This document shows, one piece after another, positions 158-18,600 of a stretch of 39,102 bases of DNA. The notes beneath the pieces were generated by a model. It was given only the letters and a program-made list of their open reading frames with translations, made no database searches and was not told the DNA's origin. This DNA comes from a virus. Position 1 is the first letter of the stretch. Each line of letters begins with the position of its first letter. The stretch is from the IMG/VR virus record IMGVR_UViG_3300028025_003168, positions 1 through 39,102 of that record; one strand, 5' to 3'. The translations under genes were made by a program, and so were the position numbers.

Positions 158-173
158 GTAACCTATTTGTTAC
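158..173. promoter_or_regulatory. paired RTAAC half-sites, 11-bp spacing
   Basis: GTAAC, 6 nt, GTTAC: an inverted pair. The same 5-6-5 geometry recurs near other left-arm promoters and at 10991-11028. Confidence 0.4.
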
Positions 174-1072: not shown

Positions 1073-1088
1073 GTTATCATTTCGTAAC
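1073..1088. promoter_or_regulatory. paired RTAAC half-sites, 11-bp spacing
   Basis: GTTAT, 6 nt, GTAAC, about 35 bp upstream of promoter copy 2. Confidence 0.4.
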
Positions 1089-3344: not shown

Positions 3345-3360
3345 GTAACTGATTTGTTAT
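3345..3360. promoter_or_regulatory. paired RTAAC half-sites, 11-bp spacing
   Basis: GTAAC, 6 nt, GTTAT, upstream of promoter copy 6. Confidence 0.4.
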
Positions 3361-3917: not shown

Positions 3918-3933
3918 GTAACAGAATGATAAC
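3918..3933. promoter_or_regulatory. paired RTAAC half-sites, 11-bp spacing
   Basis: GTAAC, 6 nt, ATAAC as direct repeats, upstream of promoter copy 7. Confidence 0.4.
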
Positions 3934-4572: not shown

Positions 4573-4588
4573 ATAACAAATTGGTAAC
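4573..4588. promoter_or_regulatory. paired RTAAC half-sites, 11-bp spacing
   Basis: ATAAC, 6 nt, GTAAC. The whole 16-19 bp closely matches 11013-11030. Confidence 0.4.
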
Positions 4589-4592
4589 AGTC

Positions 4593-4607: not shown

Positions 4608-4609
4608 TC

Positions 4610-4831
4610 CTAGCAGTAGCCCTCGACCATAGTTCCCTCTTCTGCTAATGAGTCTACATAGTCAGCAAAGCCACAGCGATATGCGATTGGGTCACACTCT
4701 TTGAGTACCGTTGATGGGTAGAACTCTGAGTAACCAATAGACACGATAGGGTAGCACTCGTCTAGTAGTGCGTCGTAGTTGGCTTTCGCTTCTTCTTCGG
4801 ACAGGATTTCGAGGGTATCGTATTCGTTCAT
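4610..4831 (-). CDS. 73-aa acidic leaderless phage protein
   Basis: MNEYDTLEILSEEEAKANYD..., with DECYPIVSIG and CDPIAYRCGFADYVDS. Looks like a small hypothetical protein seen in several phages; function unknown. The ATG is exactly 6 nt after the -10 TATAGT, and no ribosome site is present. Confidence 0.75.
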   Translation of the reverse strand: MNEYDTLEILSEEEAKANYDALLDECYPIVSIGYSEFYPSTVLKECDPIAYRCGFADYVDSLAEEGTMVEGYC

Positions 4832-4837
4832 ATAATG

Positions 4838-4861
4838 ACTATAACACGAGCCACCGACAGT
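4838..4861 (-). promoter_or_regulatory. shared-motif promoter (copy 10), leaderless
   Basis: Spacer CTGTCGGTGGCTCGTGT, -10 TATAGT, 6 nt (CATTAT), ATG at 4831. The -35 position (CGATCA) is poor. Confidence 0.65.
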
Positions 4862-4865
4862 GATC

Positions 4866-4877
4866 GGCGCCCCCCCC
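4866..4877. repeat. GGCGCC palindrome unit h
   Basis: GGCGCCCCCCCC abutting the stop codon of the 12-aa micropeptide. Confidence 0.35.
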
Positions 4878-4915
4878 TAGTGACCACAGCAAGGGAAGTC
4901 TTCACACTTACACAT
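4877..4915 (-). CDS. 12-aa cysteine-rich micropeptide MCKCEDFPCCGH
   Basis: The reading frame ATG...TAG encodes MCKCEDFPCCGH: four Cys and one His in 12 residues. Its ATG overlaps the end of the 77-aa gene (ATGTGTAA), so coupled translation is possible. I recall similar short PCCGH-type peptides in actinophages but cannot verify this. A metal-binding peptide is a plausible guess. Confidence 0.45.
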   Translation of the reverse strand: MCKCEDFPCCGH

Positions 4916-5141
4916 AGTCGTCACCTGCGTAGAAACCGTAGTCCTCGTCAGTGCCCCAGCCAGCAGAGGCAAGAGCATCGGCATCCATCCAGCCCTCTGA
5001 GTCAAACTCAGTACGCTCGAATGGGTTGCCACCAGCAATCTCGAAGTAGGCATCTGCCTCCTCAAGAGTCCACTCGTTGCCGAGGTCGTCTGTCCAAGCA
5101 ACGATTTCGTTGTCTTCACCGAAGATAGGGTCGAAGTTCAT
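4908..5141 (-). CDS. 77-aa acidic phage protein
   Basis: MNFDPIFGEDNEIVAWTDDL..., very acidic, ending DYGFYAGDDYV. The start at 5141 is preferred to upstream codons because GAAAGGAAA precedes it; the longer reading would run through the promoter. High negative charge is a feature of DNA-mimic proteins, but this is only suggestive. Confidence 0.75.
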   Translation of the reverse strand: MNFDPIFGEDNEIVAWTDDLGNEWTLEEADAYFEIAGGNPFERTEFDSEGWMDADALASAGWGTDEDYGFYAGDDYV

Positions 5142-5170
5142 AGGTGATTTCCTTTCGTGATGTAATACAA

Positions 5171-5193
5171 GATTAGCACTAGCCACCGACATT
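5171..5193 (-). promoter_or_regulatory. shared-motif promoter (copy 11)
   Basis: Spacer ATGTCGGTGGCTAGTGC, -10 TAATCT; leader of about 25 nt with AAAGGA. Confidence 0.65.
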
Positions 5194-5249
5194 CGGGACA
5201 AAATCTCAGGCGTTTTTAATGCATATCGTAAATGGGTCGCCAACGGATC

Positions 5250-5260
5250 GGCGCCGCCCC
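5250..5260. repeat. GGCGCC palindrome unit i
   Basis: GGCGCCGCCCC between the 43-aa gene and promoter copy 11. Confidence 0.35.
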
Positions 5261-5277
5261 TGCGAGGGTATGTCAAG

Positions 5278-5291
5278 CGACACGCCGATTA
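5278..5291. repeat. CGACACGCCGATAA-type repeat 1
   Basis: CGACACGCCGATTA, preceded by TGTCAAG; overlaps the stop of the 43-aa gene. Confidence 0.6.
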
Positions 5292-5420
5292 CGGATAAAA
5301 AGCAGCCCAATACAGCAAGATAAGCCAATACGCACCAACCAACACAGCACTAGCGATTGCTAGTTGAGTCAGGAAGCGACAGATGCCACGAACTACATAG
5401 TAGGCTTTAGAGTGTTCCAT
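5289..5420 (-). CDS. 43-aa single-span membrane microprotein
   Basis: MEHSKAYYVVRGICRFLTQL then a long hydrophobic stretch (AIASAVLVGAYWLILLYW) and AAFYP. Starts immediately after the stop of the 31-aa gene (TAA ATG). Confidence 0.6.
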   Translation of the reverse strand: MEHSKAYYVVRGICRFLTQLAIASAVLVGAYWLILLYWAAFYP

Positions 5421-5516
5421 TTATCGGCTCATTTCCATTAGGATAATCGGGAACCAGTACCCAGCGAAGGCAATGGCGAGAGCAATCGCTCCCCAGATGA
5501 AGGTGTGAGAATACAT
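5421..5516 (-). CDS. 31-aa single-span membrane microprotein
   Basis: MYSHTFIWGAIALAIAFAGY continues WFPIILMEMSR: essentially one membrane helix. The start follows ACGAAAGGAAAACT. First gene of a two-gene membrane-peptide unit. Confidence 0.6.
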   Translation of the reverse strand: MYSHTFIWGAIALAIAFAGYWFPIILMEMSR

Positions 5517-5537
5517 AGTTTTCCTTTCGTTGATTTG

Positions 5538-5561
5538 AGTATAGCGTGACCCACCGACACT
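5538..5561 (-). promoter_or_regulatory. shared-motif promoter (copy 12)
   Basis: Spacer GTGTCGGTGGGTCACGC, -10 TATACT; leader of about 20 nt with AAAGGA. Confidence 0.7.
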
Positions 5562-5730
5562 AGTCGGCTATTGGGAAGATGTCCAGAATCGGGAAGGCAG
5601 TTTCCAATTCGTCACAGACAATAGCGTCGTGGCACTGTTGGCAGACAGCCACAAATTCCAATTCGGCAATGTCGGTGTCGTACTGAAGTACCTCAAGAGC
5701 GAGACGGTGGTCGCAGATTTCACATTCCAT
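5560..5730 (-). CDS. 56-aa zinc-ribbon-like microprotein, MEC family
   Basis: MECEICDHRLALEVLQYDTD..., with C-x2-C at residues 3-6 and C-x2-C (CQQC) near residue 30: a four-cysteine zinc ribbon. Paralogue of 6390-6536 and 7876-8016 by its MEC-x2-C start and spacing. The start at 5730 follows AAAGGAAAACTAAA. The stop overlaps promoter copy 12. Confidence 0.75.
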   Translation of the reverse strand: MECEICDHRLALEVLQYDTDIAELEFVAVCQQCHDAIVCDELETAFPILDIFPIAD

Positions 5731-5756
5731 TTTAGTTTTCCTTTCGTTTGATTTGA

Positions 5757-5779
5757 TTCTAACAGCACCCACCGACACT
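5757..5779 (-). promoter_or_regulatory. shared-motif promoter (copy 13)
   Basis: Spacer GTGTCGGTGGGTGCTGT, -10 TAGAAT; overlaps the stop of the 36-aa gene. Confidence 0.7.
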
Positions 5780-5888
5780 AGTCGGTTTCGTCTGCCATCA
5801 GAGCGACCTGAAGACCGAGCAACTGCTCAACCGTCATAGTCTCAATGTCCTGTACACCCTCAGCGGTGATGATTTTCATAAATCCCAT
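5778..5888 (-). CDS. 36-aa phage microprotein
   Basis: MGFMKIITAEGVQDIETMTV..., ending LMADETD; a single amphipathic helix is likely. A very good ribosome site (AAGGAGAG) precedes the ATG. Function unknown. Confidence 0.65.
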   Translation of the reverse strand: MGFMKIITAEGVQDIETMTVEQLLGLQVALMADETD

Positions 5889-5915
5889 TTGGACTCTCCT
5901 TTCTTCGTTACCCTC

Positions 5916-5939
5916 ACTCTAGCAGTACCCACCGACATT
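5916..5939 (-). promoter_or_regulatory. shared-motif promoter (copy 14)
   Basis: Spacer ATGTCGGTGGGTACTGC, -10 TAGAGT. A CGGCGTGTCG repeat lies just upstream (5948-5961). Confidence 0.7.
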
Positions 5940-5947
5940 CAAGGGTG

Positions 5948-5961
5948 CGACACGCCGATTA
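5948..5961. repeat. CGACACGCCGATAA-type repeat 2
   Basis: CGACACGCCGATTA next to promoter copy 14, with an A/T-rich run beside it. Confidence 0.6.
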
Positions 5962-5984
5962 CGTAAAAAATTTTTGGGAGTAAT

Positions 5985-6014
5985 TTATCCACATACGTAA
6001 AGAAGTTATCCACA
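5985..6014 (+). promoter_or_regulatory. two DnaA boxes
   Basis: Exact TTATCCACA at 5985-5993 and 6006-6014, 21 bp apart (two helical turns). Confidence 0.7.
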
Positions 6015-6015
6015 G

Positions 6016-6035
6016 GCGGGGCGCCGATTTTTTCG
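6016..6035. repeat. GGCGCC palindrome unit j
   Basis: GGCGGGGCGCCG then a GCCGA/TCGGC mini-hairpin with a T5 loop. Directly follows a DnaA box. Confidence 0.4.
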
Positions 6036-6047
6036 GCATTGTCAAAC

Positions 6048-6060
6048 CGACACGCCATAT
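6048..6060. repeat. CGACACGCCGATAA-type repeat 3 (degenerate)
   Basis: CGACACGCCATAT, preceded by TGTCAAAC. Confidence 0.5.
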
Positions 6061-6078
6061 ATGTCAAAATTGGAATAT

Positions 6079-6094
6079 CTTCGGGATCCCGAAG
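6079..6094 (-). terminator. perfect palindrome CTTCGGGATCCCGAAG
   Basis: 16-bp perfect palindrome about 10 nt after the stop of the 45-aa gene; candidate transcription end. No T tract follows. Confidence 0.4.
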
Positions 6095-6104
6095 GGTAGT
6101 TTAC

Positions 6105-6242
6105 CTATGAGGCAAACTCACCCTCAAGACGCATAAGGTAGAAACGCTCAGAGATGAGACAAGGCTTGCAAATAAGCCACTCGCTCTCAGCGGATACGAA
6201 CACAGTCTCTACAGACTTTTCGCAAACTTCACAGATTTTCAT
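6105..6242 (-). CDS. 45-aa zinc-ribbon-like microprotein
   Basis: MKICEVCEKSVETVFVSAES..., with C-x2-C at 4-7 and C-x2-C (CKPC) near residue 25, then a helix ending LRL-type (FYLMRLEGEFAS). Its ribosome site AAAGGAAAACT lies inside the 3' end of the 33-aa gene, so the two are coupled. Confidence 0.7.
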   Translation of the reverse strand: MKICEVCEKSVETVFVSAESEWLICKPCLISERFYLMRLEGEFAS

Positions 6243-6244
6243 AT

Positions 6245-6346
6245 TTAGTTTTCCTTTCTTTGTTCACACTTTTGAGTGTGGTTAGTGTACTCCCACGGAG
6301 TCCAAATGTAGGACAATCCGCAGTATGTGCATTTGTGATATTTCAT
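6245..6346 (-). CDS. 33-aa zinc-finger-like microprotein
   Basis: MKYHKCTYCGLSYIWTPWEY..., ending HTQKCEQRKEN. C-x2-C and H-x3-C fit one classical zinc finger. The start follows AAAGGCAAACTA. First gene of a two-gene zinc unit. Confidence 0.65.
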   Translation of the reverse strand: MKYHKCTYCGLSYIWTPWEYTNHTQKCEQRKEN

Positions 6347-6366
6347 TAGTTTGCCTTTCTTGATTT

Positions 6367-6391
6367 GATTCTAGCACTACCCACCGACATT
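6367..6391 (-). promoter_or_regulatory. shared-motif promoter (copy 15)
   Basis: Spacer ATGTCGGTGGGTAGTGC, -10 TAGAAT; overlaps the stop of the 48-aa gene. Confidence 0.7.
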
Positions 6392-6536
6392 AGACGAGGG
6401 CGGTATCCAATTCTGCTACGACATAGTGACCAACAAGGCTAGCCTCGCAACGGTCACACACTACAGTCTCAACAGAGTTCATGAACAGCATGACGGCTAC
6501 AGTAGCCTCATAGTATTCGCAGAATGTACATTCCAT
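6390..6536 (-). CDS. 48-aa zinc-ribbon-like microprotein, MEC family
   Basis: MECTFCEYYEATVAVMLFMN..., with C-x2-C at 3-6 and CDRC near residue 27. Paralogue of the 56-aa protein at 5560. The start at 6536 follows AAAGGAAAACTAAA. The frame stays open upstream and contains two copies of an MSLANK-encoding leader; those upstream starts lack a good ribosome site. Confidence 0.75.
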   Translation of the reverse strand: MECTFCEYYEATVAVMLFMNSVETVVCDRCEASLVGHYVVAELDTALV

Positions 6537-6628
6537 TTTAGTTTTCCTTTCTTTAGGGGATTTATTTGCTAGGCTCATACGGTTTCCCGTCTTATTTGCT
6601 AGGCTCACTCCCTTGTGCTTACAAAGTA

Positions 6629-6652
6629 AGACTATCAGTACCCACCGACATT
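6629..6652 (-). promoter_or_regulatory. shared-motif promoter (copy 16)
   Basis: Spacer ATGTCGGTGGGTACTGA, -10 TAGTCT; leader of about 85 nt containing the duplicated GAGCCTAGCAAATAA. Confidence 0.6.
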
Positions 6653-6667
6653 GGAACGCAAATATGC

Positions 6668-6752
6668 CCTATTTTCTAGGGGTTTTACCCTATTCTTAAG
6701 TAAACATAAGTATAAAATCTATCCACAGAGTTATCCACAGGGGGCGCCGCCC
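6668..6752. repeat. long direct repeat, copy A
   Basis: About 85 bp nearly identical to 7745-7830: a TTTTACCCTATTCTTAAG block, two DnaA-type boxes and GGCGCC. Non-coding. Confidence 0.85.
6719..6739 (+). promoter_or_regulatory. two DnaA boxes
   Basis: CTATCCACA (one mismatch) at 6719-6727 and exact TTATCCACA at 6731-6739. Confidence 0.65.
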
Positions 6753-6755
6753 CCC
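6740..6755. repeat. GGCGCC palindrome unit k
   Basis: GGGGGCGCCGCCCCCC: strong GC stem directly after a DnaA box and near the stop of the endonuclease gene. Confidence 0.45.
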
Positions 6756-6777
6756 TCCGACATTTGTCAAATCCTGG

Positions 6778-7137
6778 CTAGGCGTTTCGCAAATATTCCA
6801 TTGCCCTAGCGATACGGTCTAGGTCGTCTTGGAACACACCCAAGCCACGGTTACAGTTGTGGCAGATGTGTCCACGGAAAGCACCTGTACCGTGGTCGTG
6901 GTCTACTACCCACACAGAGGCGTTGCCACCTGTTCCCTTTAGTTCATCTTCTGACTTTAGGCAGATAGGGCAGGTGTGTCCCTGTTCGGGGTAGCCAAAC
7001 TCTTTACGCAGAGCACGACGCTCACTAGACAACTTGCGACCACAGTCACGGCACTCAGGTCGTAGGTACTTGCCACCAGAGGCAGGGGAGAACGAAGCGT
7101 GAGGGAGTGACTCTTGGCACTTGGAGCAGGTTTTCAT
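6778..7137 (-). CDS. recombination endonuclease VII-like HNH nuclease
   Basis: 119 aa. The N-terminal zinc ribbon has C-x2-C at 4-7 and a second C-x2-C (CRDC) near 29. The nuclease core has CPIC, then [20 protein letters not shown], which is the hallmark of the endonuclease VII (HNH, beta-beta-alpha-metal) family. Such enzymes resolve branched DNA or act as phage homing-type nucleases. The ATG lies 6 nt after TAAAGT of a degenerate promoter (7143-7167), so it is probably leaderless. Confidence 0.9.
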
Positions 7138-7142
7138 AGTTT

Positions 7143-7167
7143 CACTTTACTGTAGGGGTCTGACATT
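7143..7167 (-). promoter_or_regulatory. shared-motif promoter (copy 17, degenerate), leaderless
   Basis: Spacer ATGTCAGACCCCTACAG, -10 TAAAGT, 6 nt (GAAACT), ATG at 7137. Confidence 0.5.
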
Positions 7168-7175
7168 CTGCTAGG

Positions 7176-7189
7176 CGACACGCCGATAA
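7176..7189. repeat. CGACACGCCGATAA repeat 4
   Basis: Exact copy, upstream of promoter copy 17, beside a T-rich run. Confidence 0.65.
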
Positions 7190-7230
7190 ATCATAAAAAA
7201 GTTTGAGGCATTTTTTTGGATCTACGTAAT

Positions 7231-7249
7231 TGTGCATAAGTTATCCACA
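7231..7249. promoter_or_regulatory. inverted pair of DnaA boxes
   Basis: TGTGCATAA (reverse box, 7231-7239) and TTATCCACA (7241-7249), back to back. Confidence 0.7.
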
Positions 7250-7250
7250 G

Positions 7251-7269
7251 GCGGCGCCGATTTTTTCGG
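7251..7269. repeat. GGCGCC palindrome unit l
   Basis: GCGGCGCCGATTTTTTCGG directly after the DnaA pair. Confidence 0.4.
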
Positions 7270-7280
7270 GTATGTCAAGC

Positions 7281-7294
7281 CGACACGCCGATAA
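7281..7294. repeat. CGACACGCCGATAA repeat 5
   Basis: Exact copy preceded by TGTCAAGC; followed by an A run. Confidence 0.65.
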
Positions 7295-7341
7295 ACTGAA
7301 AAAATCTTTATGGGAGATCTCACAGGGTAAGGACAAAGACT

Positions 7342-7542
7342 CTACAGAATCTCTATCTTGTTACCAAGTGAGACATAGGCGGTCTTTCCACCTACGAAGG
7401 TAATGAAGGCGGTATCGCCATTCAATCCCTTTACAGACTCAATCACACCAGTGTAGTGAAACACTGGTCCGAATGGTCGGGGCTTGTTGCTAAACGCAAC
7501 ACGCTTTCCGACTAGGGCTTTTACTTTTTGAGTGAAGGTCAT
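7342..7542 (-). CDS. 66-aa small SH3-like protein
   Basis: MTFTQKVKALVGKRVAFSNK..., then YTGVIESVKGLNGD and FVGGKTAYVSLG. Alternating strands with G-x-I-x-S-x2-G-x-NG, then a GGK turn, match the 92-aa protein at 8481 (TGRIKSATGTNGS, FTNGKSAKLTL). A small beta-barrel is inferred. The start at 7542 follows GGAAGTG; an upstream in-frame start encodes an MSLARANK extension. Confidence 0.7.
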   Translation of the reverse strand: MTFTQKVKALVGKRVAFSNKPRPFGPVFHYTGVIESVKGLNGDTAFITFVGGKTAYVSLGNKIEIL

Positions 7543-7619
7543 ATTGACACTTCCTTTCTTTTTAGTGAGAGTCTTATTTGCTCTTGCGAGGCTCATACTC
7601 TCTGTTTGTTTATATTACT

Positions 7620-7648
7620 ATCTAATCACACATTTTTCGATTTGTCAA
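7620..7648 (-). promoter_or_regulatory. consensus-like sigma-70 promoter without the shared spacer
   Basis: -35 TTGACA (7643-7648), 17-nt spacer, -10 TTAGAT (7620-7625). The spacer lacks TGTCGGTGG, unlike the 24 other left-arm promoters. The -35 falls inside the end of the 21-aa frame. Confidence 0.6.
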
Positions 7649-7710
7649 GTCGACACGCCGTATATGTGAAAAAATCTTTTCACTTTTTTGGTGTTTCTTT
7701 CTTGATTCAT
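7645..7710 (-). CDS. possible 21-aa leaderless micropeptide
   Basis: MNQERNTKKVKRFFHIYGVS-T, basic. Supported only by the -10 TACACT placed 6 nt before its ATG. Its 3' end is shared with the CGACACGCC repeat and with the next promoter's -35, so it may be non-coding. Confidence 0.35.
   Translation of the reverse strand: MNQERNTKKVKRFFHIYGVST
7651..7664. repeat. CGACACGCCGATAA repeat 6 (degenerate)
   Basis: CGACACGCCGTATA; upstream of the promoter at 7620-7648. Confidence 0.5.
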
Positions 7711-7715
7711 ACCTT

Positions 7716-7740
7716 CAGTGTAACAGTACCCACTGACATT
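7716..7740 (-). promoter_or_regulatory. shared-motif promoter (copy 18)
   Basis: Spacer ATGTCAGTGGGTACTGT, -10 TACACT, 6 nt, ATG at 7710. Confidence 0.65.
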
Positions 7741-7744
7741 ATGA

Positions 7745-7830
7745 CCTATTTTTATAGGGGTTTTACCCTATTCTTAAGTAAACACAAGTATAAAATCTAT
7801 CCACAGAGTTATCCACAGGCGGCGCCGCCC
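7745..7830. repeat. long direct repeat, copy B
   Basis: Second copy of the 6668-6752 block, with a few substitutions and one inserted base. Confidence 0.85.
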
Positions 7831-7849
7831 TGTGCATAAGTTATCCACA
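7798..7849. promoter_or_regulatory. cluster of four DnaA boxes around GGCGCC
   Basis: CTATCCACA 7798-7806, TTATCCACA 7809-7817, TGTGCATAA (reverse) 7831-7839, TTATCCACA 7841-7849. Confidence 0.7.
7818..7829. repeat. GGCGCC palindrome unit m
   Basis: Perfect 12-bp palindrome GGCGGCGCCGCC between DnaA boxes. Confidence 0.5.
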
Positions 7850-7875
7850 GTTTGATGATCTCGGCGGTACTGTGG

Positions 7876-8016
7876 TTAGCCTCTCACATCTGCCTCTGCC
7901 ATCACTAACCAAGACTCACCAAGAGCCTCAGAGCAATTAGCACAGACAGAGAATTGGTATGCACCATCGCTAACCAATTCGGTAGCCAGACGGTAGTCAC
8001 AAAGTTCGCATTCCAT
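7876..8016 (-). CDS. 46-aa zinc-ribbon-like microprotein, MEC family
   Basis: MECELCDYRLATELVSDGAY..., with C-x2-C at 3-6 and CANC near residue 25. Paralogue of 5560 and 6390. The ATG overlaps the stop of the 48-aa membrane gene (TAATG), so the pair is translationally coupled. Confidence 0.7.
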   Translation of the reverse strand: MECELCDYRLATELVSDGAYQFSVCANCSEALGESWLVMAEADVRG

Positions 8017-8162
8017 TACTTAGCACCTTTCTTGTTGTAGTAGATACCAACAGCGACCATAGCCATAAGGCACAGGAACACAAACCCACAAAGGCTACTA
8101 CCAATAACCAGAGTCATCTGGTTCAGGTATTCGATTCGTTCATCTGACATTTTGTTATCCAT
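8016..8162 (-). CDS. 48-aa single-span membrane microprotein
   Basis: MDNKMSDERIEYLNQMTLVI followed by a membrane span (GSSLCGFVFLCLMAMVAVGI) and YYNKKGAK, so the C terminus is probably cytoplasmic. The alternative start at 8150 would give MSDERIEY. No strong ribosome site distinguishes them. Confidence 0.65.
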   Translation of the reverse strand: MDNKMSDERIEYLNQMTLVIGSSLCGFVFLCLMAMVAVGIYYNKKGAK

Positions 8163-8182
8163 TCTTTTTGTTTGTTAGTTAC

Positions 8183-8206
8183 AGTATGACACTAGCCACC
8201 GACATT
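8183..8206 (-). promoter_or_regulatory. shared-motif promoter (copy 19)
   Basis: Spacer ATGTCGGTGGCTAGTGT, -10 CATACT; overlaps the stop of the 38-aa gene. Confidence 0.65.
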
Positions 8207-8321
8207 AGAACAAACGGTTAGGCTTGTTCTTTCCCTTGACCGTGATAACGATGAAGACGATGCTACCTACGATTACGAAGAGCGAGGTGATTACTGTTGC
8301 AATTGCTGTGATGTTTTCCAT
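8205..8321 (-). CDS. 38-aa single-span membrane microprotein, copy 1
   Basis: MENITAIATVITSLFVIVGS... then IVFIVITVKGKNKPNRLF. One membrane helix and a basic KNKPN tail. Same length and pattern as 8812-8928. The ATG is 6 nt after the -10 TTAGAT. Confidence 0.7.
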   Translation of the reverse strand: MENITAIATVITSLFVIVGSIVFIVITVKGKNKPNRLF

Positions 8322-8327
8322 ACCTTT

Positions 8328-8351
8328 ATCTAATCAGTAGCCACTGACATT
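8328..8351 (-). promoter_or_regulatory. shared-motif promoter (copy 20), leaderless
   Basis: -35 TTGCAA, spacer ATGTCAGTGGCTACTGA, -10 TTAGAT, 6 nt, ATG at 8321. Confidence 0.7.
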
Positions 8352-8358
8352 TGCAACG

Positions 8359-8372
8359 CGACACGCCGATAA
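8359..8372. repeat. CGACACGCCGATAA repeat 7
   Basis: Exact copy just upstream of the -35 of promoter copy 20. Confidence 0.65.
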
Positions 8373-8384
8373 GCGTAAAAATAC

Positions 8385-8414
8385 TTATCCACATATTAGT
8401 CAAAGTTATCCACA
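8385..8414 (+). promoter_or_regulatory. two DnaA boxes
   Basis: Exact TTATCCACA at 8385-8393 and 8406-8414, again 21 bp apart. Confidence 0.7.
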
Positions 8415-8432
8415 GGCGGCGCCGATTTTTTG
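8415..8432. repeat. GGCGCC palindrome unit n
   Basis: GGCGGCGCCGATTTTTTG following a DnaA box. Confidence 0.4.
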
Positions 8433-8446
8433 GGGGTATGTCAAAC

Positions 8447-8460
8447 CGACACGCCGATAA
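8447..8460. repeat. CGACACGCCGATAA repeat 8
   Basis: Exact copy preceded by TGTCAAAC, close to the stop of the 92-aa gene. Confidence 0.65.
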
Positions 8461-8480
8461 GTGGGATCTCCACCTATAGG

Positions 8481-8759
8481 CTAGTCAGTGAACTCACTCA
8501 GTACCATTTCATCGGATACCGATTCGGCAACCTCTAGTACTGACTGTAGTGTAAGTTTGGCAGACTTGCCATTGGTGAATGTTACTACACACTCACTACC
8601 GTTAGTACCAGTAGCAGACTTGATTCTACCAGTAGACACAATCAACTCAGGGTAGCGTGAACGCCAATCCCTAGTACGGATAGTTACCAACTTACCAATG
8701 TTGTTGTTAGCAATCATTAGAGGAGTAGTAGTAGCAATTCCAATTTGTATCTTTTTCAT
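8481..8759 (-). CDS. 92-aa small SH3-like protein
   Basis: MKKIQIGIATTTPLMIANNN..., then GKLVTIRTRDW, STGRIKSATGTNGS, VTFTNGKSAKLTL, and an acidic tail. The barrel part matches the 66-aa protein at 7342. The start follows AGGAAATATAGAAA, in a leader nearly identical to that of the 28-aa gene at 9113. Confidence 0.75.
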   Translation of the reverse strand: MKKIQIGIATTTPLMIANNNIGKLVTIRTRDWRSRYPELIVSTGRIKSATGTNGSECVVTFTNGKSAKLTLQSVLEVAESVSDEMVLSEFTD

Positions 8760-8789
8760 TTTCTATATTTCCTATTCTTTATTACTTAG

Positions 8790-8813
8790 AGTGTATCAGG
8801 GGGTACTGACATT
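8790..8813 (-). promoter_or_regulatory. shared-motif promoter (copy 21)
   Basis: Spacer ATGTCAGTACCCCCTGA (GGTGG lost), -10 TACACT; overlaps the stop of the 38-aa gene copy 2. Confidence 0.6.
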
Positions 8814-8928
8814 AGAACAAGCCATTAGGCTTGTTGTTGTCTTTGACCGTGATGATGATGAAGATTACTCCACCAACGATTACGAATACTGAGGTAGCGA
8901 TTGATGCGATTGCGATTACTGTTTCCAT
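8812..8928 (-). CDS. 38-aa single-span membrane microprotein, copy 2
   Basis: METVIAIASIATSVFVIVGG... then VIFIIITVKDNNKPNGLF. Aligns without gaps with the 38-aa protein at 8205, and the flanking DNA is also similar, so the whole unit was duplicated. The ATG is 6 nt after TTAGAT. Confidence 0.7.
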   Translation of the reverse strand: METVIAIASIATSVFVIVGGVIFIIITVKDNNKPNGLF

Positions 8929-8934
8929 ATCTAT

Positions 8935-8958
8935 ATCTAATCAGCAACCACTGACATT
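8935..8958 (-). promoter_or_regulatory. shared-motif promoter (copy 22), leaderless
   Basis: -35 TTGTAA, spacer ATGTCAGTGGTTGCTGA, -10 TTAGAT, 6 nt, ATG at 8928. Confidence 0.7.
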
Positions 8959-8965
8959 TACAAAC

Positions 8966-8979
8966 CGACACGCCGATAA
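8966..8979. repeat. CGACACGCCGATAA repeat 9
   Basis: Exact copy just upstream of the -35 of promoter copy 22. Confidence 0.65.
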
Positions 8980-9030
8980 ACGCAAAAGTTTTTTGGGGAA
9001 ATTTTGGATCTTCTTATAAGCCATACAGGG

Positions 9031-9081
9031 TGTGTATAAGTTATCCACAGGCGGCGCCAAATTGTGGATAAGTTGTCCACA
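9031..9081. promoter_or_regulatory. cluster of four DnaA boxes around GGCGCC
   Basis: TGTGTATAA (reverse) 9031-9039, TTATCCACA 9041-9049, TGTGGATAA (reverse, exact) 9063-9071, TTGTCCACA (one mismatch) 9073-9081: two back-to-back inverted pairs. Confidence 0.7.
9050..9058. repeat. GGCGCC palindrome unit o
   Basis: GGCGGCGCC between the two inverted DnaA-box pairs; the rightmost copy seen. Confidence 0.4.
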
Positions 9082-9094
9082 GGTTTGGGGATCT

Positions 9095-9137
9095 CTGCTA
9101 CTGGCAGACTGGTTAGCGACCTGACCACCAGTAGCAG
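9095..9137 (-). terminator. stem-loop overlapping the end of the 28-aa gene
   Basis: Ten-base perfect arms CTGCTACTGG (9095-9104) and CCAGTAGCAG (9128-9137). One arm is coding, the other just after the stop. Possible transcription end. Confidence 0.4.
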
Positions 9138-9199
9138 AATGCAATGTATGCAAATGGAGCCATTGACAGTACTGCGAGAATGATTACTACGATTTCCAT
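9113..9199 (-). CDS. 28-aa single-span membrane micropeptide
   Basis: MEIVVIILAVLSMAPFAYIA then FCYWWSGR: one hydrophobic helix with an aromatic, basic end. The start follows AGGAAATAGAAAA. Confidence 0.55.
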   Translation of the reverse strand: MEIVVIILAVLSMAPFAYIAFCYWWSGR

Positions 9200-9231
9200 T
9201 TTTCTATTTCCTATTCTTTGTTGTTAGTTAG

Positions 9232-9255
9232 AGTGTATCAGTAGTGACTGACACT
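9232..9255 (-). promoter_or_regulatory. shared-motif promoter (copy 23)
   Basis: Spacer GTGTCAGTCACTACTGA, -10 TACACT; leader of about 25 nt with AGGAAA. Confidence 0.6.
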
Positions 9256-9259
9256 TAGG

Positions 9260-9376
9260 TTAGGCAATGCCAGTGATAAGGTGAGCAAGTGCTGAACGGA
9301 AAGTCTTGTGACCAACCTTAGTGGAAGTTCCAACCTTGACCCAGTAGTAGCCTTCTGACTTTGTGATTCCGAACAT
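9260..9376 (-). CDS. 38-aa basic phage microprotein
   Basis: MFGITKSEGYYWVKVGTSTK..., then FRSALAHLITGIA. Beta-rich first half, short helix at the end. Weak ribosome site (GAGAAAC). Leader of about 40 nt from promoter copy 24. Function unknown. Confidence 0.6.
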   Translation of the reverse strand: MFGITKSEGYYWVKVGTSTKVGHKTFRSALAHLITGIA

Positions 9377-9423
9377 TTTGTTTCTCTTTTCTTTGTTGTT
9401 GTTTGTGTTTCTCTCTATGTATA

Positions 9424-9448
9424 TATCTAATCAGTAGCCACCGACATT
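9424..9448 (-). promoter_or_regulatory. shared-motif promoter (copy 24)
   Basis: -35 TTGCTA, spacer ATGTCGGTGGCTACTGA, -10 TTAGAT. Rightmost copy seen. Confidence 0.7.
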
Positions 9449-9455
9449 AGCAATG

Positions 9456-9469
9456 CGACACGCCGATAA
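9456..9469. repeat. CGACACGCCGATAA repeat 10
   Basis: Exact copy upstream of promoter copy 24, followed by an A/T run. After this the repeat family stops. Confidence 0.65.
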
Positions 9470-9641
9470 GTGAAAAAATAAATAAGAATTTTTTTACTAG
9501 GGGTGGGCAGTAGTGTGCGGACTAATTTGGTATGCTTTACGCTATAAAGTGTGCATCGTTCACAAATACAAAATATTCAGATTTTTGTCAAATCGAAAAT
9601 AAAAAATTTTTCAGATTTTCCAGGGTATCAAAATACGCAGA
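9470..9641. other. AT-rich non-coding boundary segment
   Basis: No convincing gene. Contains long A and T runs (around 9480-9500 and 9600-9612). It separates the repeat-rich left arm from an operon that uses a different promoter type. Confidence 0.5.
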
Positions 9642-9722
9642 TCAAACCAACCCTGATAGATAAACAATCAAAGCAAAGATACCTATGATACCTAATAGAC
9701 CAGAGAAGATATCTCCGATCAT
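9642..9722 (-). CDS. 26-aa single-span membrane micropeptide
   Basis: MIGDIFSGLLGIIGIFALIV then YLSGLV. The ATG overlaps the TGA of the 57-aa gene (ATGA), a typical coupled operon junction. Confidence 0.55.
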   Translation of the reverse strand: MIGDIFSGLLGIIGIFALIVYLSGLV

Positions 9723-9892
9723 AAGAAACCTAGATATTCAGAGAGATTCTCTTTGGTATCTAATTTGAAATTGTATACAGTAGTAGCGATTACCGAGGGG
9801 TATGTATCACAATACTCAGCAATCTCTTCAACAGACATACTCTGATACTTATCTTTAAGCCATATATAATTCATATAGTCTGTTCGTAACAT
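9719..9892 (-). CDS. 57-aa helix-turn-helix-like protein
   Basis: MLRTDYMNYIWLKDKYQSMS then VEEIAEYCDTYPSVIATTVY. The SVEEIAEYCDTYPSVI pattern looks like a small HTH (helix, turn, recognition helix). Good ribosome site AAGGAG. It could be a transcriptional regulator, but no close family is recognised. Confidence 0.65.
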   Translation of the reverse strand: MLRTDYMNYIWLKDKYQSMSVEEIAEYCDTYPSVIATTVYNFKLDTKENLSEYLGFL

Positions 9893-9959
9893 ATTAACTC
9901 CTTAAGGTTTATCAATTTTGGACGGTATATCAGCAACGAAGTTGCTCCTGAAAGGGATA

Positions 9960-10169
9960 TTACCATTTATGCACAGGACACTTAGCCTGTTCAAGAGAAG
10001 TCTTAAGCTTCATAAAACATCCACACTTGGAGCAACGCTTTGATCCCTTTAAGAAGAAAGGACATTCAGCACATATAGCTAACCTTGACTCCATAAGTTC
10101 TCGCGTACTTCTAGGCATATTAGGATCCAATAAATCCCAGATGCTTACATCATCTCCAACTTTTCCCAT
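9960..10169 (-). CDS. 69-aa zinc-ribbon phage protein (DUF6171-like)
   Basis: The C-terminal half has C-x2-C (ICAECPFF), C-x2-C-x-C (CSKCGCFMKLK) and CPVHKW, a pattern I associate with small phage zinc proteins of the DUF6171 type; function unknown. The ATG lies 6 nt after a consensus TATAAT. First gene of the three-gene unit 10169 to 9642. Confidence 0.8.
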   Translation of the reverse strand: MGKVGDDVSIWDLLDPNMPRSTRELMESRLAICAECPFFLKGSKRCSKCGCFMKLKTSLEQAKCPVHKW

Positions 10170-10175
10170 ACAAAC

Positions 10176-10181
10176 ATTATA
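10176..10181 (-). promoter_or_regulatory. TATAAT promoter, leaderless
   Basis: On the - strand TATAAT, 6 nt (GTTTGT), ATG at 10169. No TGTCGGTGG spacer. Confidence 0.6.
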
Positions 10182-10206
10182 GCAAACAATATTTTGTTAA
10201 AGAAAA

Positions 10207-10249
10207 GTCCCCTAGCTACGAATTGGAATGATATCCATAGTTAGGGGAC
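10207..10249. other. stem-loop in the divergent region
   Basis: Arms GTCCCCTA and TAGGGGAC, loop of 27 nt. No T tract. Purpose unknown. The rest of 10182-10542 holds no gene I can support; it is AT-rich with several GATAT motifs. Confidence 0.4.
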
Positions 10250-10542
10250 AGTCTGTTTTGCTGGTTTCCGATTTACCTAGATAGAATACCTGCTTGGCAT
10301 ACTTGACTGGGGTCATACAAATCATATCACAGTATCTTCGATATGTTCATCAAACATGAACTAAGCAAAGCTATATCACAAAAATCCGATATTGGGGATA
10401 TATCGTTATTTTCCGATATCATACATATCTCCCATTTTGGGTATTTGGTATTTGGAATCTCTATATCGCCGCCGAATTTTCCGCCGAGTATAATGAGCAT
10501 AGTTAGTTATTCATATGTATAAACTTAGTTTAAAACTTACGA

Positions 10543-10548
10543 TATAAT
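10543..10548 (+). promoter_or_regulatory. TATAAT promoter
   Basis: TATAAT followed by 8 nt and the ATG at 10557: leaderless or nearly so. Faces away from the left arm. Confidence 0.5.
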
Positions 10549-10556
10549 TGATTGTT

Positions 10557-10868
10557 ATGACAATTGAAGAATGGCAATCCATCATAGGGATAATTATTGG
10601 GGTATCAGCAGTAGCTGGAATACTTTTTGCAATTCTTAGATTCTATATAAAGACTTTTGCTAAAGAACAGTTTGATGAAATCAGACATGAGTTAAAACCT
10701 AATGGAGGATCATCAATAAAGGATCAGGTAACGAGACTCGAAGAAAAGCAAAAGCAAATTGCTGAACGCCAACATGAAGATGATGTAAAGTTTGAACAAA
10801 GACTTGACAAACTTGAAAAGAAGATAGATGATGTATTTAGAATAATACTTGATAAACTATCGAAATAG
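10557..10868 (+). CDS. small membrane protein with coiled coil (holin-like topology)
   Basis: 103 aa. One N-terminal membrane span (IIGIIIGVSAVAGILFAILR, residues about 9-28), then a charged helical region with heptads (KDQVTRLEEKQKQIAERQ; DKLEKKIDDVFRIILDKL). This topology is common in phage small membrane proteins and some holins, but a separate r1t-like holin is present at 23469, so lysis is only one option. The start ATG at 10557 is preferred to TTG at 10548, which overlaps the -10. Confidence 0.75.
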   Translation: MTIEEWQSIIGIIIGVSAVAGILFAILRFYIKTFAKEQFDEIRHELKPNGGSSIKDQVTRLEEKQKQIAERQHEDDVKFEQRLDKLEKKIDDVFRIILDKLSK

Positions 10869-10884
10869 ATATACTATTCCCCCA

Positions 10885-10905
10885 AATCCTACGGATTGTT
10901 TTTTC
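10885..10905 (+). terminator. intrinsic terminator
   Basis: AATCC, loop TAC, GGATT, then GTTTTTT, shortly after the stop of the 103-aa gene. A second small hairpin (CTCT/AGAG with TTTTC) follows at about 10926-10940. Confidence 0.6.
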
Positions 10906-10990
10906 TTGTATTGAAGAGCTATCTCTAAGCGAGAGTTTTCTTAGTATCTATTATCTTTATATACAGTAGCACACTGTCAAGCACTATTTG

Positions 10991-11028
10991 ATAACGTTTC
11001 TATAACGATTGTATAACAATTTGATAAC
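10991..11028. promoter_or_regulatory. 11-bp-phased ATAAC array (four copies)
   Basis: ATAAC begins at 10991, 11002, 11013 and 11024, exactly one helical turn apart. A reverse-oriented pair (GTTAC 11061, GTTAT 11072) follows with the same 11-bp step. Probable operator for a phage or host regulator. Confidence 0.6.
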
Positions 11029-11082
11029 GGTGTGTATTTAGGCGGAACTTATTGATGATCGTTACCTAATCGTTATATATGT

Positions 11083-11088
11083 TATACT
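11083..11088 (+). promoter_or_regulatory. TATACT promoter before the right arm
   Basis: TATACT with the expected transcript start at about 11095, exactly where the 13-bp hairpin begins. It lies just downstream of the ATAAC array. Confidence 0.45.
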
Positions 11089-11094
11089 ATTCAT

Positions 11095-11142
11095 GGCTGG
11101 CATTCGAGCGTCTCTCATACCCACTATTTTCGAGTGCCAGCC
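11095..11142 (+). other. long stem-loop at the start of the right-arm transcript
   Basis: Arms 11095-11107 (GGCTGGCATTCGA) and 11130-11142 (TCGAGTGCCAGCC) give 13 pairs with one G-U; loop of 22 nt. Could be a 5' mRNA stabiliser, an attenuator or a small RNA. Confidence 0.55.
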
Positions 11143-11154
11143 TTATTAGTAGTG

Positions 11155-11160
11155 TATAAT
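11155..11160 (+). promoter_or_regulatory. TATAAT promoter
   Basis: TATAAT 9 nt before the ATG at 11170; very short leader. Confidence 0.45.
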
Positions 11161-11169
11161 TATATTACT

Positions 11170-11547
11170 ATGACTACTACTGCTGAAATTTTTGGTGCAA
11201 ATCCACACAGCATGAAATGGACTGTCGTCAGAGGCGACACATCTGTACTTCGCGTAGAATTTTTTGAGAATGACGAAGTTACAGAATATGATACATCAGA
11301 TTGGGAATATGCTTCTTATGCATATGATTTTAAAGGTGATGTATTAGACGAGCTTGAAACATCTTCAGGAGATGGATATGTCGAAATTACTGCTCCTGCA
11401 GATACCACGAAATTCTGGGGAACTGGATATAAAGCAGTAGTAGCAGAATTAGCTTTCGATCTCCAAGTAACTATTGACAATACAGTATGGACACCTGTTA
11501 TTGGTACGATTACCGTTATCGGAGACGTAACAGGAGGAAGTTTATAA
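11170..11547 (+). CDS. tail-associated protein, BppU-N-like
   Basis: 125 aa. Contains MKWTVVRGDTSVLRVEFFEN and, later, a beta-rich half ending TPVIGTITVIGDVTGGSL. The W-TVVRGD-x-x-FRV-type motif is shared with the 136-aa protein at 14504 and resembles the N-terminal domain of phage baseplate upper protein (BppU). The start MTTTAEIF at 11170 was chosen because longer readings run into the stem-loop. The stop overlaps the next ATG (TAATG). Confidence 0.65.
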   Translation: MTTTAEIFGANPHSMKWTVVRGDTSVLRVEFFENDEVTEYDTSDWEYASYAYDFKGDVLDELETSSGDGYVEITAPADTTKFWGTGYKAVVAELAFDLQVTIDNTVWTPVIGTITVIGDVTGGSL

Positions 11548-12263
11548 TGCCAACAATTAAGATTGTTCCATTCCCTGGATCAGCTGGACAAACAGGACCA
11601 GCAGGACCATCAGGAAGTCAGGGACCAACAGGACCAGCAGGTCAAAATGCACTTTGGTCTTTTTCTGGTCCTTACAATAATTCAGCCACATATTCAATCG
11701 GTAGTGTTGTTACCTACAATGGTTCAACATGGTATCGTAATGCAACTGGTACAGCTGGACAAATTCCACAAACTGGATCAGCCGTATGGCAATTGGTTGC
11801 AGCAAGTGGAAGTGGTGTTCCAGCAGGAGGATCCACTGGTTACTATTTAGGAAAAGAGTCTGCAACAGATTATGCAGTAACCTGGATAGATCCAAGCATT
11901 CTTAAGATTAAAAAGGTATCTGAAACTTTTACAACTATCAATGCAGCAACAGGTGTAGTTACACACAACTGCTCACTTGGTCACATTTTTAGTCACACAA
12001 ACTTGTCAGCAAACTTTACAGCAAATCTTACTAACCTAGCCCTTGACTCTGGTTCAGCAACTACTGTGACTCTTATTTTGAATCAGGGTGGTACTGCAAG
12101 AATTCCAAGTGCTGTTCAGATTGCTGGTTCTGCCCAGACAATTAACTGGCAGGGAGGTAGTGTCCCACCAGGAAATGCTAATAAGAAGGACATTGTTAGC
12201 TTTAGTATTCTAAACAATGGAGGGGCATACACTGTCTTCGGTCAGCTTGTATCATTTGGATAA
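11547..12263 (+). CDS. collagen-like tail fibre protein with carbohydrate-binding-like segment
   Basis: 238 aa. Residues about 10-35 are Gly-X-Y repeats (GQTGPAGPSGS, GPTGPAGQ). Next comes WSFSGPYNNSATYSIGSVVT and YNGSTWYRNATG, like a chitin/carbohydrate-binding module, then a beta-rich C-terminal part with NWQGGSVPPGNANKKD, seen in tail proteins. Ribosome site AGGAGGAAG. Likely a trimeric receptor-binding or accessory fibre. Confidence 0.75.
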   Translation: MPTIKIVPFPGSAGQTGPAGPSGSQGPTGPAGQNALWSFSGPYNNSATYSIGSVVTYNGSTWYRNATGTAGQIPQTGSAVWQLVAASGSGVPAGGSTGYYLGKESATDYAVTWIDPSILKIKKVSETFTTINAATGVVTHNCSLGHIFSHTNLSANFTANLTNLALDSGSATTVTLILNQGGTARIPSAVQIAGSAQTINWQGGSVPPGNANKKDIVSFSILNNGGAYTVFGQLVSFG

Positions 12264-13015
12264 TGTTTAGTTCATTTACAGGATCATTTCAAGCAGGTAA
12301 GAGAGCTGGAACAGTTGAGCCTTTTACTGCAAACATTGTTCAGTCTGGTTTATTTTCACACTACGAATCTAGCTACCCAGACTCATACCCTGGAACTGGA
12401 ACATCATGGTTTGATCTAGAAACTAATAATGGTCCAGCAATTCTTCAAAACGGTACAGAGTATAGTCTTGTAAACAATGGTGTATTTGTGTTAGATGGAA
12501 TTGATGATTACATTACCGTTCCAGATGCAGCACCAATGCGTGGACAGGTTAATGTACCTTTTACTATTCAGCTATGGGTAAATGTTCAGTCATTCAATGA
12601 CAAAGATAGGCTTTTTGAAAAAATCACATTCGGTGCAGGGTACTCATTACAGCTTAGAAATGAAGGACAGCTAGCACTTGAAATGAATGGTGCATCTACT
12701 GATTCATACGTTATCGCTGGATCTACAATTCCACTAAACACTTGGGTATTTGTTACAGCAGTAATTGCATTTAATGGAAGAAGCTCAGTACCAAGCAAGG
12801 TTTACGTAAATAAGGTACAGCATATTTATCTAGAAAATACTGAGACCAGTACAAACTCAAACAACTCTGCACTAAAGATTAACTCTGGTCAAACACCAGG
12901 TTCTCGTGAACCAATTTCAAGAATCGGTGCGGTATATGTTTATAGCAAGGCTTTGACACTTGCTGAAGTAGAAGAAAACTTTGATGCAACGAAGGGAAGA
13001 TTTGGCGTAGCTTAG
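12263..13015 (+). CDS. LamG-like (concanavalin-type) tail protein
   Basis: 250 aa. FVLDGIDDYITVPD, FTIQLWVNVQSF, ALEMNG, NTWVFVTAVIAF, VYVNK and IGAVYVYSKALTLAEVEENF give the typical order of a LamG/jelly-roll lectin domain (residues about 60-245). Probably binds host surface sugars. The start overlaps the previous stop (TAATG). Confidence 0.85.
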   Translation: MFSSFTGSFQAGKRAGTVEPFTANIVQSGLFSHYESSYPDSYPGTGTSWFDLETNNGPAILQNGTEYSLVNNGVFVLDGIDDYITVPDAAPMRGQVNVPFTIQLWVNVQSFNDKDRLFEKITFGAGYSLQLRNEGQLALEMNGASTDSYVIAGSTIPLNTWVFVTAVIAFNGRSSVPSKVYVNKVQHIYLENTETSTNSNNSALKINSGQTPGSREPISRIGAVYVYSKALTLAEVEENFDATKGRFGVA

Positions 13016-15697: not shown

Positions 15698-18600
15698 ATG
15701 GCAGTCGAAGATAAAAATTTTAAGGTAAAGAAGGGCATTGACCTAAATGGTCCCATTGGTGTTGGACCAACTGGTAATTATGGAAATGCTGGACAAATCT
15801 TAACATCTCAGGGATCTTCTTCACCAATATGGACTGACTCAGCAACTGGTCCCACTGGACCAACAGGACCAACAGGTGCTGCTAGCACAGTTACAGGTCC
15901 AACTGGTCCTACAGGAGCAACAGGTGCTACAGGTAGTGCATCTACTGTTACAGGTCCAACTGGACCAACTGGTTCTACAGGACCAACAGGTAGTCCTGGA
16001 TTTATCGGCTCTGACGGAGCAACTGGTCCCACTGGTCCTACTGGAGCCACAGGACCACAGGGTGCTTTAGGACCACAAGGTGCTCAAGGAATTCAAGGTG
16101 TTCAAGGAGTTCAGGGTATTACAGGTCCTACAGGAGCAACAGGCTCGCTAGGACCAACAGGACCAACAGGAGCTACAGGAACTCAGGGTCCTACAGGTCC
16201 TCAAGGTAGTCAAGGAGTTATAGGTGCAACAGGTCCGATAGGTGCAACAGGTGCAACTGGATCAACTGGAGCACAAGGAGATATCGGTCCTACAGGTCCA
16301 CAAGGTACTCAAGGTGTTCAGGGTATTCAAGGAGAGCAAGGTCCAACTGGATCTACTGGTTCTGTAGGAGCCACAGGAGCTACTGGTCCTCAAGGTAATG
16401 TTGGAGCGACAGGTCCCACAGGTAGCATAGGTGCTACTGGACCACAAGGAAATACTGGTGCTACTGGACCACAAGGAGAGATTGGGGCTACTGGACCACA
16501 GGGAGTTCAGGGTATTCAAGGCATTCAAGGTGCTACTGGTGCGACAGGACCTCAAGGCTCAACTGGACCTACAGGAAGCCAAGGTCCTACTGGACCAACA
16601 GGAAGCACTGGACCTACAGGTCCTCAAGGAGCCACTGGTCCGCAGGGTGAGTCGGGACAATTCGGTGGTGCAGTATTCACATATAACTATTTGACCAACA
16701 CCACAAACTCTGATCCTGGTGCTGGAAACTTAAAGCTAAACAACGCTAACTTTGCGTCTGCTACTTCGCTTTACATTGACCTTTTAGATCTCAATTCTAC
16801 AAATAATGAGGCATACCTAGACACAATTGATGATTCAACATCAACCATTAAGGGTCACTTCAAAATGGAACAGGTTGGCAACTCTGCTAACTTTGCTTAC
16901 TATGCTATCAACGGATCGCATACTCACTCAACTGGATATTTTGCTGTTCCAATTGTGTATTTGTCTGGTTCTGTAACATCATTTGCTGACGGTACTGATG
17001 TAAACGTTACATTTGTTCGTACTGGTGATAAGGGTGACCCTGGTCTTGGCGGTACCGTTGCAAACTGGGGTTCATTCTGGGACAGCACCACTCAGATAGC
17101 AACAACAGCTGGCACACCTTATGCAATGACTTTGAACAGTTTTGATCCCGATGGAATTGGGGTAACAGTTGTTTCGGGTAGCCGAATTACTATTGCAAAT
17201 GCTGGTACATATAACTTACAGTTTTCTGCACAGCTAGATAAAAATACAAACGGAACGCACCAAACTAATATTTGGTTAAGGAAAAATGGCACAAATGTTC
17301 CAGATTCTGACGGTGAAGTAACTATTGAAAAAGATGCAAAAATTATTGCTGCTTGGAACTACGTTTTTGAGGCAGCAGCAGGAGACTATTATGAATTAAT
17401 GTGGGCAACTGAAGACGCTGGGCTAAGACTTTTGGCTCAGGCAGCCATTACTTCACCTGTTGTAAGACCAGCAATTCCTTCTATTATTGTTACAGTAACT
17501 CAAGTTACTTATACTCAGATTGGTCCGACAGGACCTACAGGTGCAACAGGAACTACAGGTACAGCAGGAGCGACAGGACCTACTGGTGCAGCAGGAGCAA
17601 CAGGTGCAACAGGTCCCACTGGACCTCAAGGTGTTATTGGTGCTACAGGACCTCAAGGTATACAAGGTATTCAGGGAATTACTGGACCACAAGGTGAAAT
17701 TGGACCAACTGGACCAACAGGTGCTGCTAGCACAGTTGCAGGTCCAACAGGTCCCACAGGAGCACAGGGATCGATTGGGGCAACAGGAGCACAGGGTCCA
17801 ACTGGTCCTCAAGGAGAAGTCGGTCCTGCTGGAGCAACTGGACCTCAAGGTGTTCAAGGTGAGCAAGGCATTGCTGGAGATACAGGTCCTACAGGAGCAA
17901 CTGGCTCGCTAGGACCAACAGGAGCAACAGGAGCTACAGGACCACTTCCTTGGAATCTTGTTGGCGCATATGATAATGGATATTATTACGGTATTGGTGA
18001 TGCAGTTACCTATCAAGGTGGATTCTACTATCGAACTGGAAACCCAGGAAATCCTGGATACCCCCCAAATCCAGGATCAATAAATGCTTCTTGGACACCA
18101 GTTGCTGACGGTGGAGCAACTGGACCTACAGGTAGCACAGGACCAGCTGGTGATACAGGTCCAACTGGACCTCAAGGTCCTACAGGCTCAACAGGCAACA
18201 TTGGACCAACAGGAGCTACTGGTGCTCAAGGTCCTACAGGTGCTCAGGGTATTCAGGGTATTCAGGGTAATACAGGACTAACTGGAGACACAGGACCTAC
18301 AGGACCTACAGGTAGCACTGGTCCAACTGGTCCAACAGGTCCTGCAGCTATTGTAAGTGCAACAGCTCCAATTACTGTGACTGGTCCAACTGGATCACAA
18401 ACAGTTGGTATTACTGTTGGCTCTACTGGAGGAGTACAAGCTTGGGATGCTGATTTAGATACCCTTGCTGCTCTTAATGGTACAGTTACTGGTCCCGCTT
18501 TCTTGAAAAACTCCTACGCTGGTGGCTGGGAACTTGGAATCACTGATGCAGGTATTACGTCTTTGACTGGTACAACAGACATCTCTTTTACTGGGATTTT

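Follow-up and report, generated by a model that had tools for sequence, protein, structure and literature searches.

The closest described systems come from cyanophages and from the genes of actinobacteria. In marine cyanomyoviruses, between 1 and 16 predicted sites for the host regulator NtcA were found in all 16 genomes (PMC3037559, partial text). In cyanophage S-PM2d, the host PhoB protein binds phage promoters in gel shift experiments (PMC10976474, partial text). In actinobacteria, the published GlnR boxes read GTnAC-n6-GTnAC and t/gTAAC-n6-Gc/aAAC (PMC10704036, partial text), and the MtrA consensus reads GTAACC-N5-GTAACC (PMC12323332, partial text). The phage locus described here shares with these boxes the RTAAC-like half-sites and the 11-bp period; the boxes were published for bacterial genes, whereas here up to four repeats occur in phage promoters (PMC10704036 and PMC12323332, partial texts). 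A literature search covering titles and the openings of abstracts, outside subscription papers, returned no GlnR/MtrA boxes in phages and no hairpin of the kind reported below.

How does this locus compare with the cyanophage systems? As in the cyanomyoviruses, sites of a host global nitrogen regulator appear to lie over phage promoters; however, the host phylum is a different one, and NtcA sites have the form GTA-N8-TAC (PMC3037559, partial text). The likeness to S-PM2d is a host response regulator of the OmpR/PhoB family at phage promoters, with binding shown there and predicted here, whereas control in S-PM2d is by phosphate and through single boxes at some genes (PMC10976474, partial text). 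In contrast to the NtcA case, the sites here form 11-bp direct-repeat arrays of a putative OmpR-type regulator, placed in a conserved late-promoter module together with a hairpin. NtcA is a different type of protein from the OmpR-type regulators. On the best reading, the array system would be to actinophages what the predicted NtcA sites are to cyanophages. The sequence suggests that the virus may read the nutritional state of its host through host nitrogen-switch tags at both its early and its late genes.

Half-site arrays in the window

The DNA analyzed, called the window, is the entire 39,102-base virus record IMGVR_UViG_3300028025_003168. Its left side consists of small leftward genes and two tRNAs. 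Its right side carries rightward tail, lysis, portal, protease, and capsid genes and ends, by eye, inside a tape-measure-like ORF. Collagen-like Gly-X-Y repeats occur among the structural genes (15698-19090 and 11563-11642). The original prediction described four ATAAC repeats at exact 11-bp steps followed by a reversed pair, and both were read directly from the window: the repeats start at 10991, 11002, 11013, and 11024, and the pair GTTAC/GTTAT lies at 11061/11072. It also placed the repeats in a divergent control region, which is wrong. The gene to the left of the array (10548/10557-10868) is rightward, and an inverted repeat resembling a terminator comes after its 3' end (at about 10880-10905, judged by eye). 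The strand switch is located at about 10200-10550 and not at the array. Between the array and the structural genes, a promoter (P1) is followed by a conserved hairpin whose tail is rich in T, and then by a second promoter (P2) with a leaderless ATG. The features of this region are as follows.

10991..11028, plus strand: four RTAAC half-sites arrayed with an 11-bp step and resembling GlnR/MtrA boxes; predicted positions from the P1 start -102, -91, -80, and -69
11061..11076, minus strand: reversed 11-bp pair GTTAC-N6-GTTAT, overlapping P1, predicted at -32 and -21
11080..11088, plus strand: P1, extended -10 element TGTTATACT; 52 of 55 related loci have the TGn form
11095..11142, plus strand: hairpin with a 14-bp stem and the constant loop UCUCUCAUACCCAC, where the P1 transcript is predicted to begin
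11155..11160, plus strand: P2, with the -10 element TATAAT and a leaderless ATG 9 nt farther on; P2-like element in 55 of 55 related loci
11170..11547, plus strand: 125-aa gene that comes first in the rightward structural cluster, weak match to phrog_1084 (E=0.029)

Half-sites, counted as RTAAC or GTTAY, recur at the same period across the left arm. At a spacing of 11 bp, positions 1-11170 contain 6 half-site pairs on the same strand and 9 in any orientation, as well as 2 triples and 1 quadruple. Block shuffles of this segment (2000) gave means of 0.13 same-strand pairs, 0.26 any-orientation pairs, and no triples or quadruples, and none of them reached the observed counts. The nine pairs start at 158, 1073, 3345, 3918, 4573, 10991, 11002, 11013, and 11061. 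The right arm (11171-39102, 27.9 kb) has no 11-bp half-site pair. The left-arm pairs lie about -75 to -46 relative to the predicted starts of several leftward promoters and are listed here without strand assignment.

158..173: pair GTAACCTATTTGTTAC, lying upstream of the leftward promoter located around 110-124
1073..1088: pair GTTATCATTTCGTAAC, about -75/-64 of a leftward promoter at 1039
3345..3360: pair GTAACTGATTTGTTAT, lying upstream of a leftward gene whose start was placed by eye at about 3283
3918..3933: pair GTAACAGAATGATAAC with a degenerate third repeat at a distance of 11 bp, together at about -68/-57/-46 of a leftward promoter at 3891
4573..4588: pair ATAACAAATTGGTAAC, about -69/-58 of a leftward promoter at 4545

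The last of these pairs had been described as almost the same sequence as 11013-11028, and the two stretches indeed differ at only 2 of 16 bases. The further claim, that one regulator could link the left-arm and late promoters, holds in part. The same pairs lie upstream of both sets of promoters, and an early-late link by one regulator is supported to that extent; the likely regulator would be a GlnR/MtrA-type protein of the host and not a phage protein.

The left arm has other repeated elements. About 18 leftward promoter-like places on the minus strand of 1028-9446 carry TGTCGGTGG just upstream of the -10 element, and with up to 2 mismatches the motif TACCCACCGACA gave 19 matches at such places against 1.8 expected. 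Several of the leftward promoters are leaderless, with an ATG 6 nt after the -10 element. Repeated AAGTTATCCACAGGCGGCGCC blocks span 6003-9083, each containing a DnaA-box-like TTATCCACA, and CGACACGCCGATAA repeats are found near them.

The late promoter module in related phages

A DNA similarity search of positions 9000-13000 against phage records returned one short match of about 65 bases, which two records annotate as head fibre protein. Relatives were found through the 125-aa gene that follows the array, which has 16 relatives in viral contigs. Upstream of these relatives, the order is RTAAC repeats, P1 extended -10 element, hairpin, P2, and close ATG. This module is common to most of the 16 upstream regions; two (L015 and L018) lack it. 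The hairpin with the constant loop UCUCUCAUACCCACC between two late promoters was observed in the window and as 55 other distinct hairpins. The resulting set of 56 distinct hairpins came from 178 loop matches in 218 loci with identical hairpins merged; near relatives were kept, and the loci are thus not independent. Four of the 56 were dropped from the spacing count for short upstream DNA, leaving 52, and one was dropped from the promoter count, leaving 55. An ATG follows P2 at a distance of 6-9 nt in 53 of these 55 loci.

A search for the array in related phages had been proposed as a check, and it came out in favor of the array: the 52 late-promoter regions contain 60 half-site pairs at 11 bp compared to 0.4 in shuffled sequence. 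There are also 21 pairs at 22 bp and 12 at 33 bp. With 200 bp upstream, these regions hold 183 half-sites in all versus 64 in shuffles. At least one 11-bp pair is present in 35 of the 52 regions and absent from the other 17.

The direct repeats in the relatives cluster about -38, -49, -60, and -71 from the predicted P1 start. Because the repeats end about -38 to -50 from that start in most relatives, their position suits an activator. The window array, at -102 to -69, lies at a greater distance from P1 than the arrays of most relatives. With a direct array far upstream and a reversed pair over P1, activation, repression, or looping could all operate in the window.

Putative hosts and the probable reader of the boxes

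Which bacterium does the virus infect? Streptomyces phages make up 127 of 252 records of portal relatives, including all of the best 20, and Mycobacterium and Streptomyces phages account for at least 369 of 371 records of GP88 relatives. WhiB is encoded in 4 of 9 phage records examined; the window does not encode it. The relatives of WhiB, like those of GP88, belong almost exclusively to actinophages. Because the portal, GP88, and WhiB relatives point to actinophages, an actinobacterium, probably from freshwater, is the likely host. Similarity of the tRNAs (82-87% at best) is unspecific for host. A putative host order was reached via one Actinomycetota MAG with a distant GP88 relative. Its genomes are streamlined and measure about 1.0-2.2 Mb, as in 'Ca. 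Nanopelagicales', which is the probable name of the order. In lakes, such bacteria reach very high abundance, according to a paper whose available part makes no mention of GlnR (PMC10202952, partial text).

The half-site and the 11-bp period of the array agree with both the GlnR and the MtrA box consensus, and the two kinds of box are indistinguishable by sequence. Eight phage records contained 62 RTAACN6RTAAC sites versus 7 for the backward control, and 13 of the 15 sites in G003 and G004 lay outside predicted ORFs. Genome G001 showed no enrichment of RTAACN6RTAAC (11 versus 13 control). Among isolated actinophages, no RTAACN6RTAAC was present in 50,000 of the 130,473 bases of Blueeyedbeauty or in 49,527 of the 53,526 bases of Trixie. 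In 101 genomes of the putative host order, the strict, phage-derived form RTAACNNTTTGRTAAC occurred 37 times compared to 5 for the control and was absent from 75 genomes. Of 34 such sites read in context, 31 were located between ORFs, and many sites in the order adjoin genes for ABC-transporter binding proteins. Three putative host genomes (loci L236, L237, and L238) have a triple 11-bp RTAAC array between an N-acetylglucosamine/amino-sugar operon and a sugar ABC transporter.

GlnR classically controls glnA and amtB, and these two genes were examined in 12 putative host genomes for that reason. Within 250 bp upstream, a strict GTAACN6GTAAC was present at 12 of the 21 glnA loci and at 7 of the 17 amtB loci; the second amtB copy lacked it in all five cases. 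For six genomes the gene places were known, and there glnA or amtB accounted for 13 of the 20 strict sites counted by hand over the whole genome. All three strict sites of genome G015 were at its two glnA genes and amtB, and neither of the two in G065 was at either gene. The N7 spacing is nearly as common as N6 in seven host genomes (21 versus 23 sites, hand count), so spacing alone is unremarkable there and it is the gene context that stands out. A GlnR-like protein is encoded in putative hosts (L278 and others); its best PDB match is 8hih, and 4o1h, named GlnR, also matches. MtrA-like proteins are likewise present (L287-L293 and L295).

The explanation that we regard as fairly probable is that the array is a multi-copy site of a host-encoded OmpR/PhoB-type regulator, most likely GlnR, by which the nitrogen state of the host would feed into early and late phage transcription. 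The next candidate regulator would be MtrA, which is present in the putative hosts. Reportedly, MtrA also binds GlnR boxes. If host MtrA, a cell-envelope and growth regulator, were the main reader, the phage would sense growth or envelope state, and the consensus GTAACC-N5-GTAACC fits the repeats equally well (PMC12323332, partial text). However, the same box is found at glnA, amtB, and ABC transporter genes of the putative hosts, a GlnR-like target set, and we consider MtrA an unlikely main reader. It is quite unlikely that the repeats are bound by a phage-encoded regulator unlike the OmpR proteins and resemble the host boxes by convergence. Repeats at many phage promoters would suit such a regulator, as would the WhiB genes of the related records and their many uncharacterized small proteins. 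Against it stand the enrichment of the spacer-inclusive motif in host genomes, the finding of the OmpR-type DNA-binding domain (PF00486) in none of the nine phage records, some of which may be fragments, and the weakness of the HTH matches of left-arm proteins (E of 0.016 or worse among the matches listed, the window being a fragment).

Direct repeats at the helical period, together with the DnaA-box-like repeats of the left arm, would also be expected of an origin, an iteron set, or a DNA-bending element that is no transcription operator. Recurrence of the repeats at several promoters at a similar distance and at host nutrient genes argues against this, the neighborhood of the array showed no replication gene, and such a role is highly improbable. 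The control region is AT-rich (34% G+C), which could favor accidental half-sites, but the counts reached in none of the 2000 shuffles and the conservation of the array in relatives rule out a chance origin.

To return to host GlnR, the phage promoters appear to carry its box arrays, and through them host nitrogen state would feed into phage transcription. In the mechanism that we infer, with respect to binding, sign of control, host, and promoter use, regulator monomers would sit side by side on one face of the DNA, one per 11-bp repeat. Boxes upstream of the left-arm promoters and P1 would then bring phage transcription, early as well as late, under the nitrogen or nutrient-status circuit of the host. 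The likely hosts are nutrient-limited and hard to culture. If this mechanism is correct, infection by phages of these hosts would follow nitrogen supply, and the use of a host nutrient regulator as a phage switch would have arisen in both cyanophages and actinophages with unrelated regulators.

The hairpin at the predicted P1 start

The window hairpin folds at -31.6 kcal/mol over 77 nt (z -5.7). Further evidence for the structure comes from covariation in 43 of the 56 hairpins, hand-chosen by leaving out near-duplicates and some other stem lengths. In these relatives, 14 of 15 stem pairs change on both sides, and pairing holds in 98.8% of stem cells, a result that none of the shuffles or slides approaches. 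The loop core ATACCCAC is invariant among relatives, an invariance that is partly built in because the core belonged to the search pattern. The hairpin had no Rfam match above the gathering score, and the window gave weak matches. It is a widespread, structurally supported RNA element that now has a promoter and a context.

At least five T residues occur in the eight bases after the stem at 49 of 55 loci, as in an intrinsic terminator; the T tail of the window, TTATTAGT, is weaker. The hairpin and the T-run after its stem suggest that P1 may be a small RNA promoter and P2 the promoter of the structural mRNA. P1 would give a short RNA that begins as the conserved hairpin, often with the T-run after it, and the structural genes would be transcribed from the leaderless P2 or by read-through. 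A late promoter of this kind is familiar from phage lambda, where the RNA made from pR' is short and stops at a terminator. Unlike pR', P1 has at +1 a hairpin whose loop is constant, and a second, leaderless promoter comes after it; no antiterminator was identified here. A more specific proposal is tentative and, though possible, doubtful: P1 would produce a terminated hairpin RNA of roughly 50 nt whose stem drifts while its loop UCUCUCAUACCCACC, constant in numerous phages of freshwater actinobacteria, binds a protein or RNA. The host nitrogen regulator would gate P1 via the array, so that the RNA would switch between early leftward and late rightward expression according to nitrogen.

An antisense target of the loop in the host was rejected as a candidate: TCTCATACCCAC had 8 matches compared to 5 for the control in 61 genomes, with no conserved target. 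Within the window, contiguous complementarity to the loop of at least 9 bases was at chance level, the hairpin itself aside. The complement of the loop shares the 8-mer GGTGGGTA with the left-arm promoter motifs; this 8-mer has four exact copies there on the minus strand.
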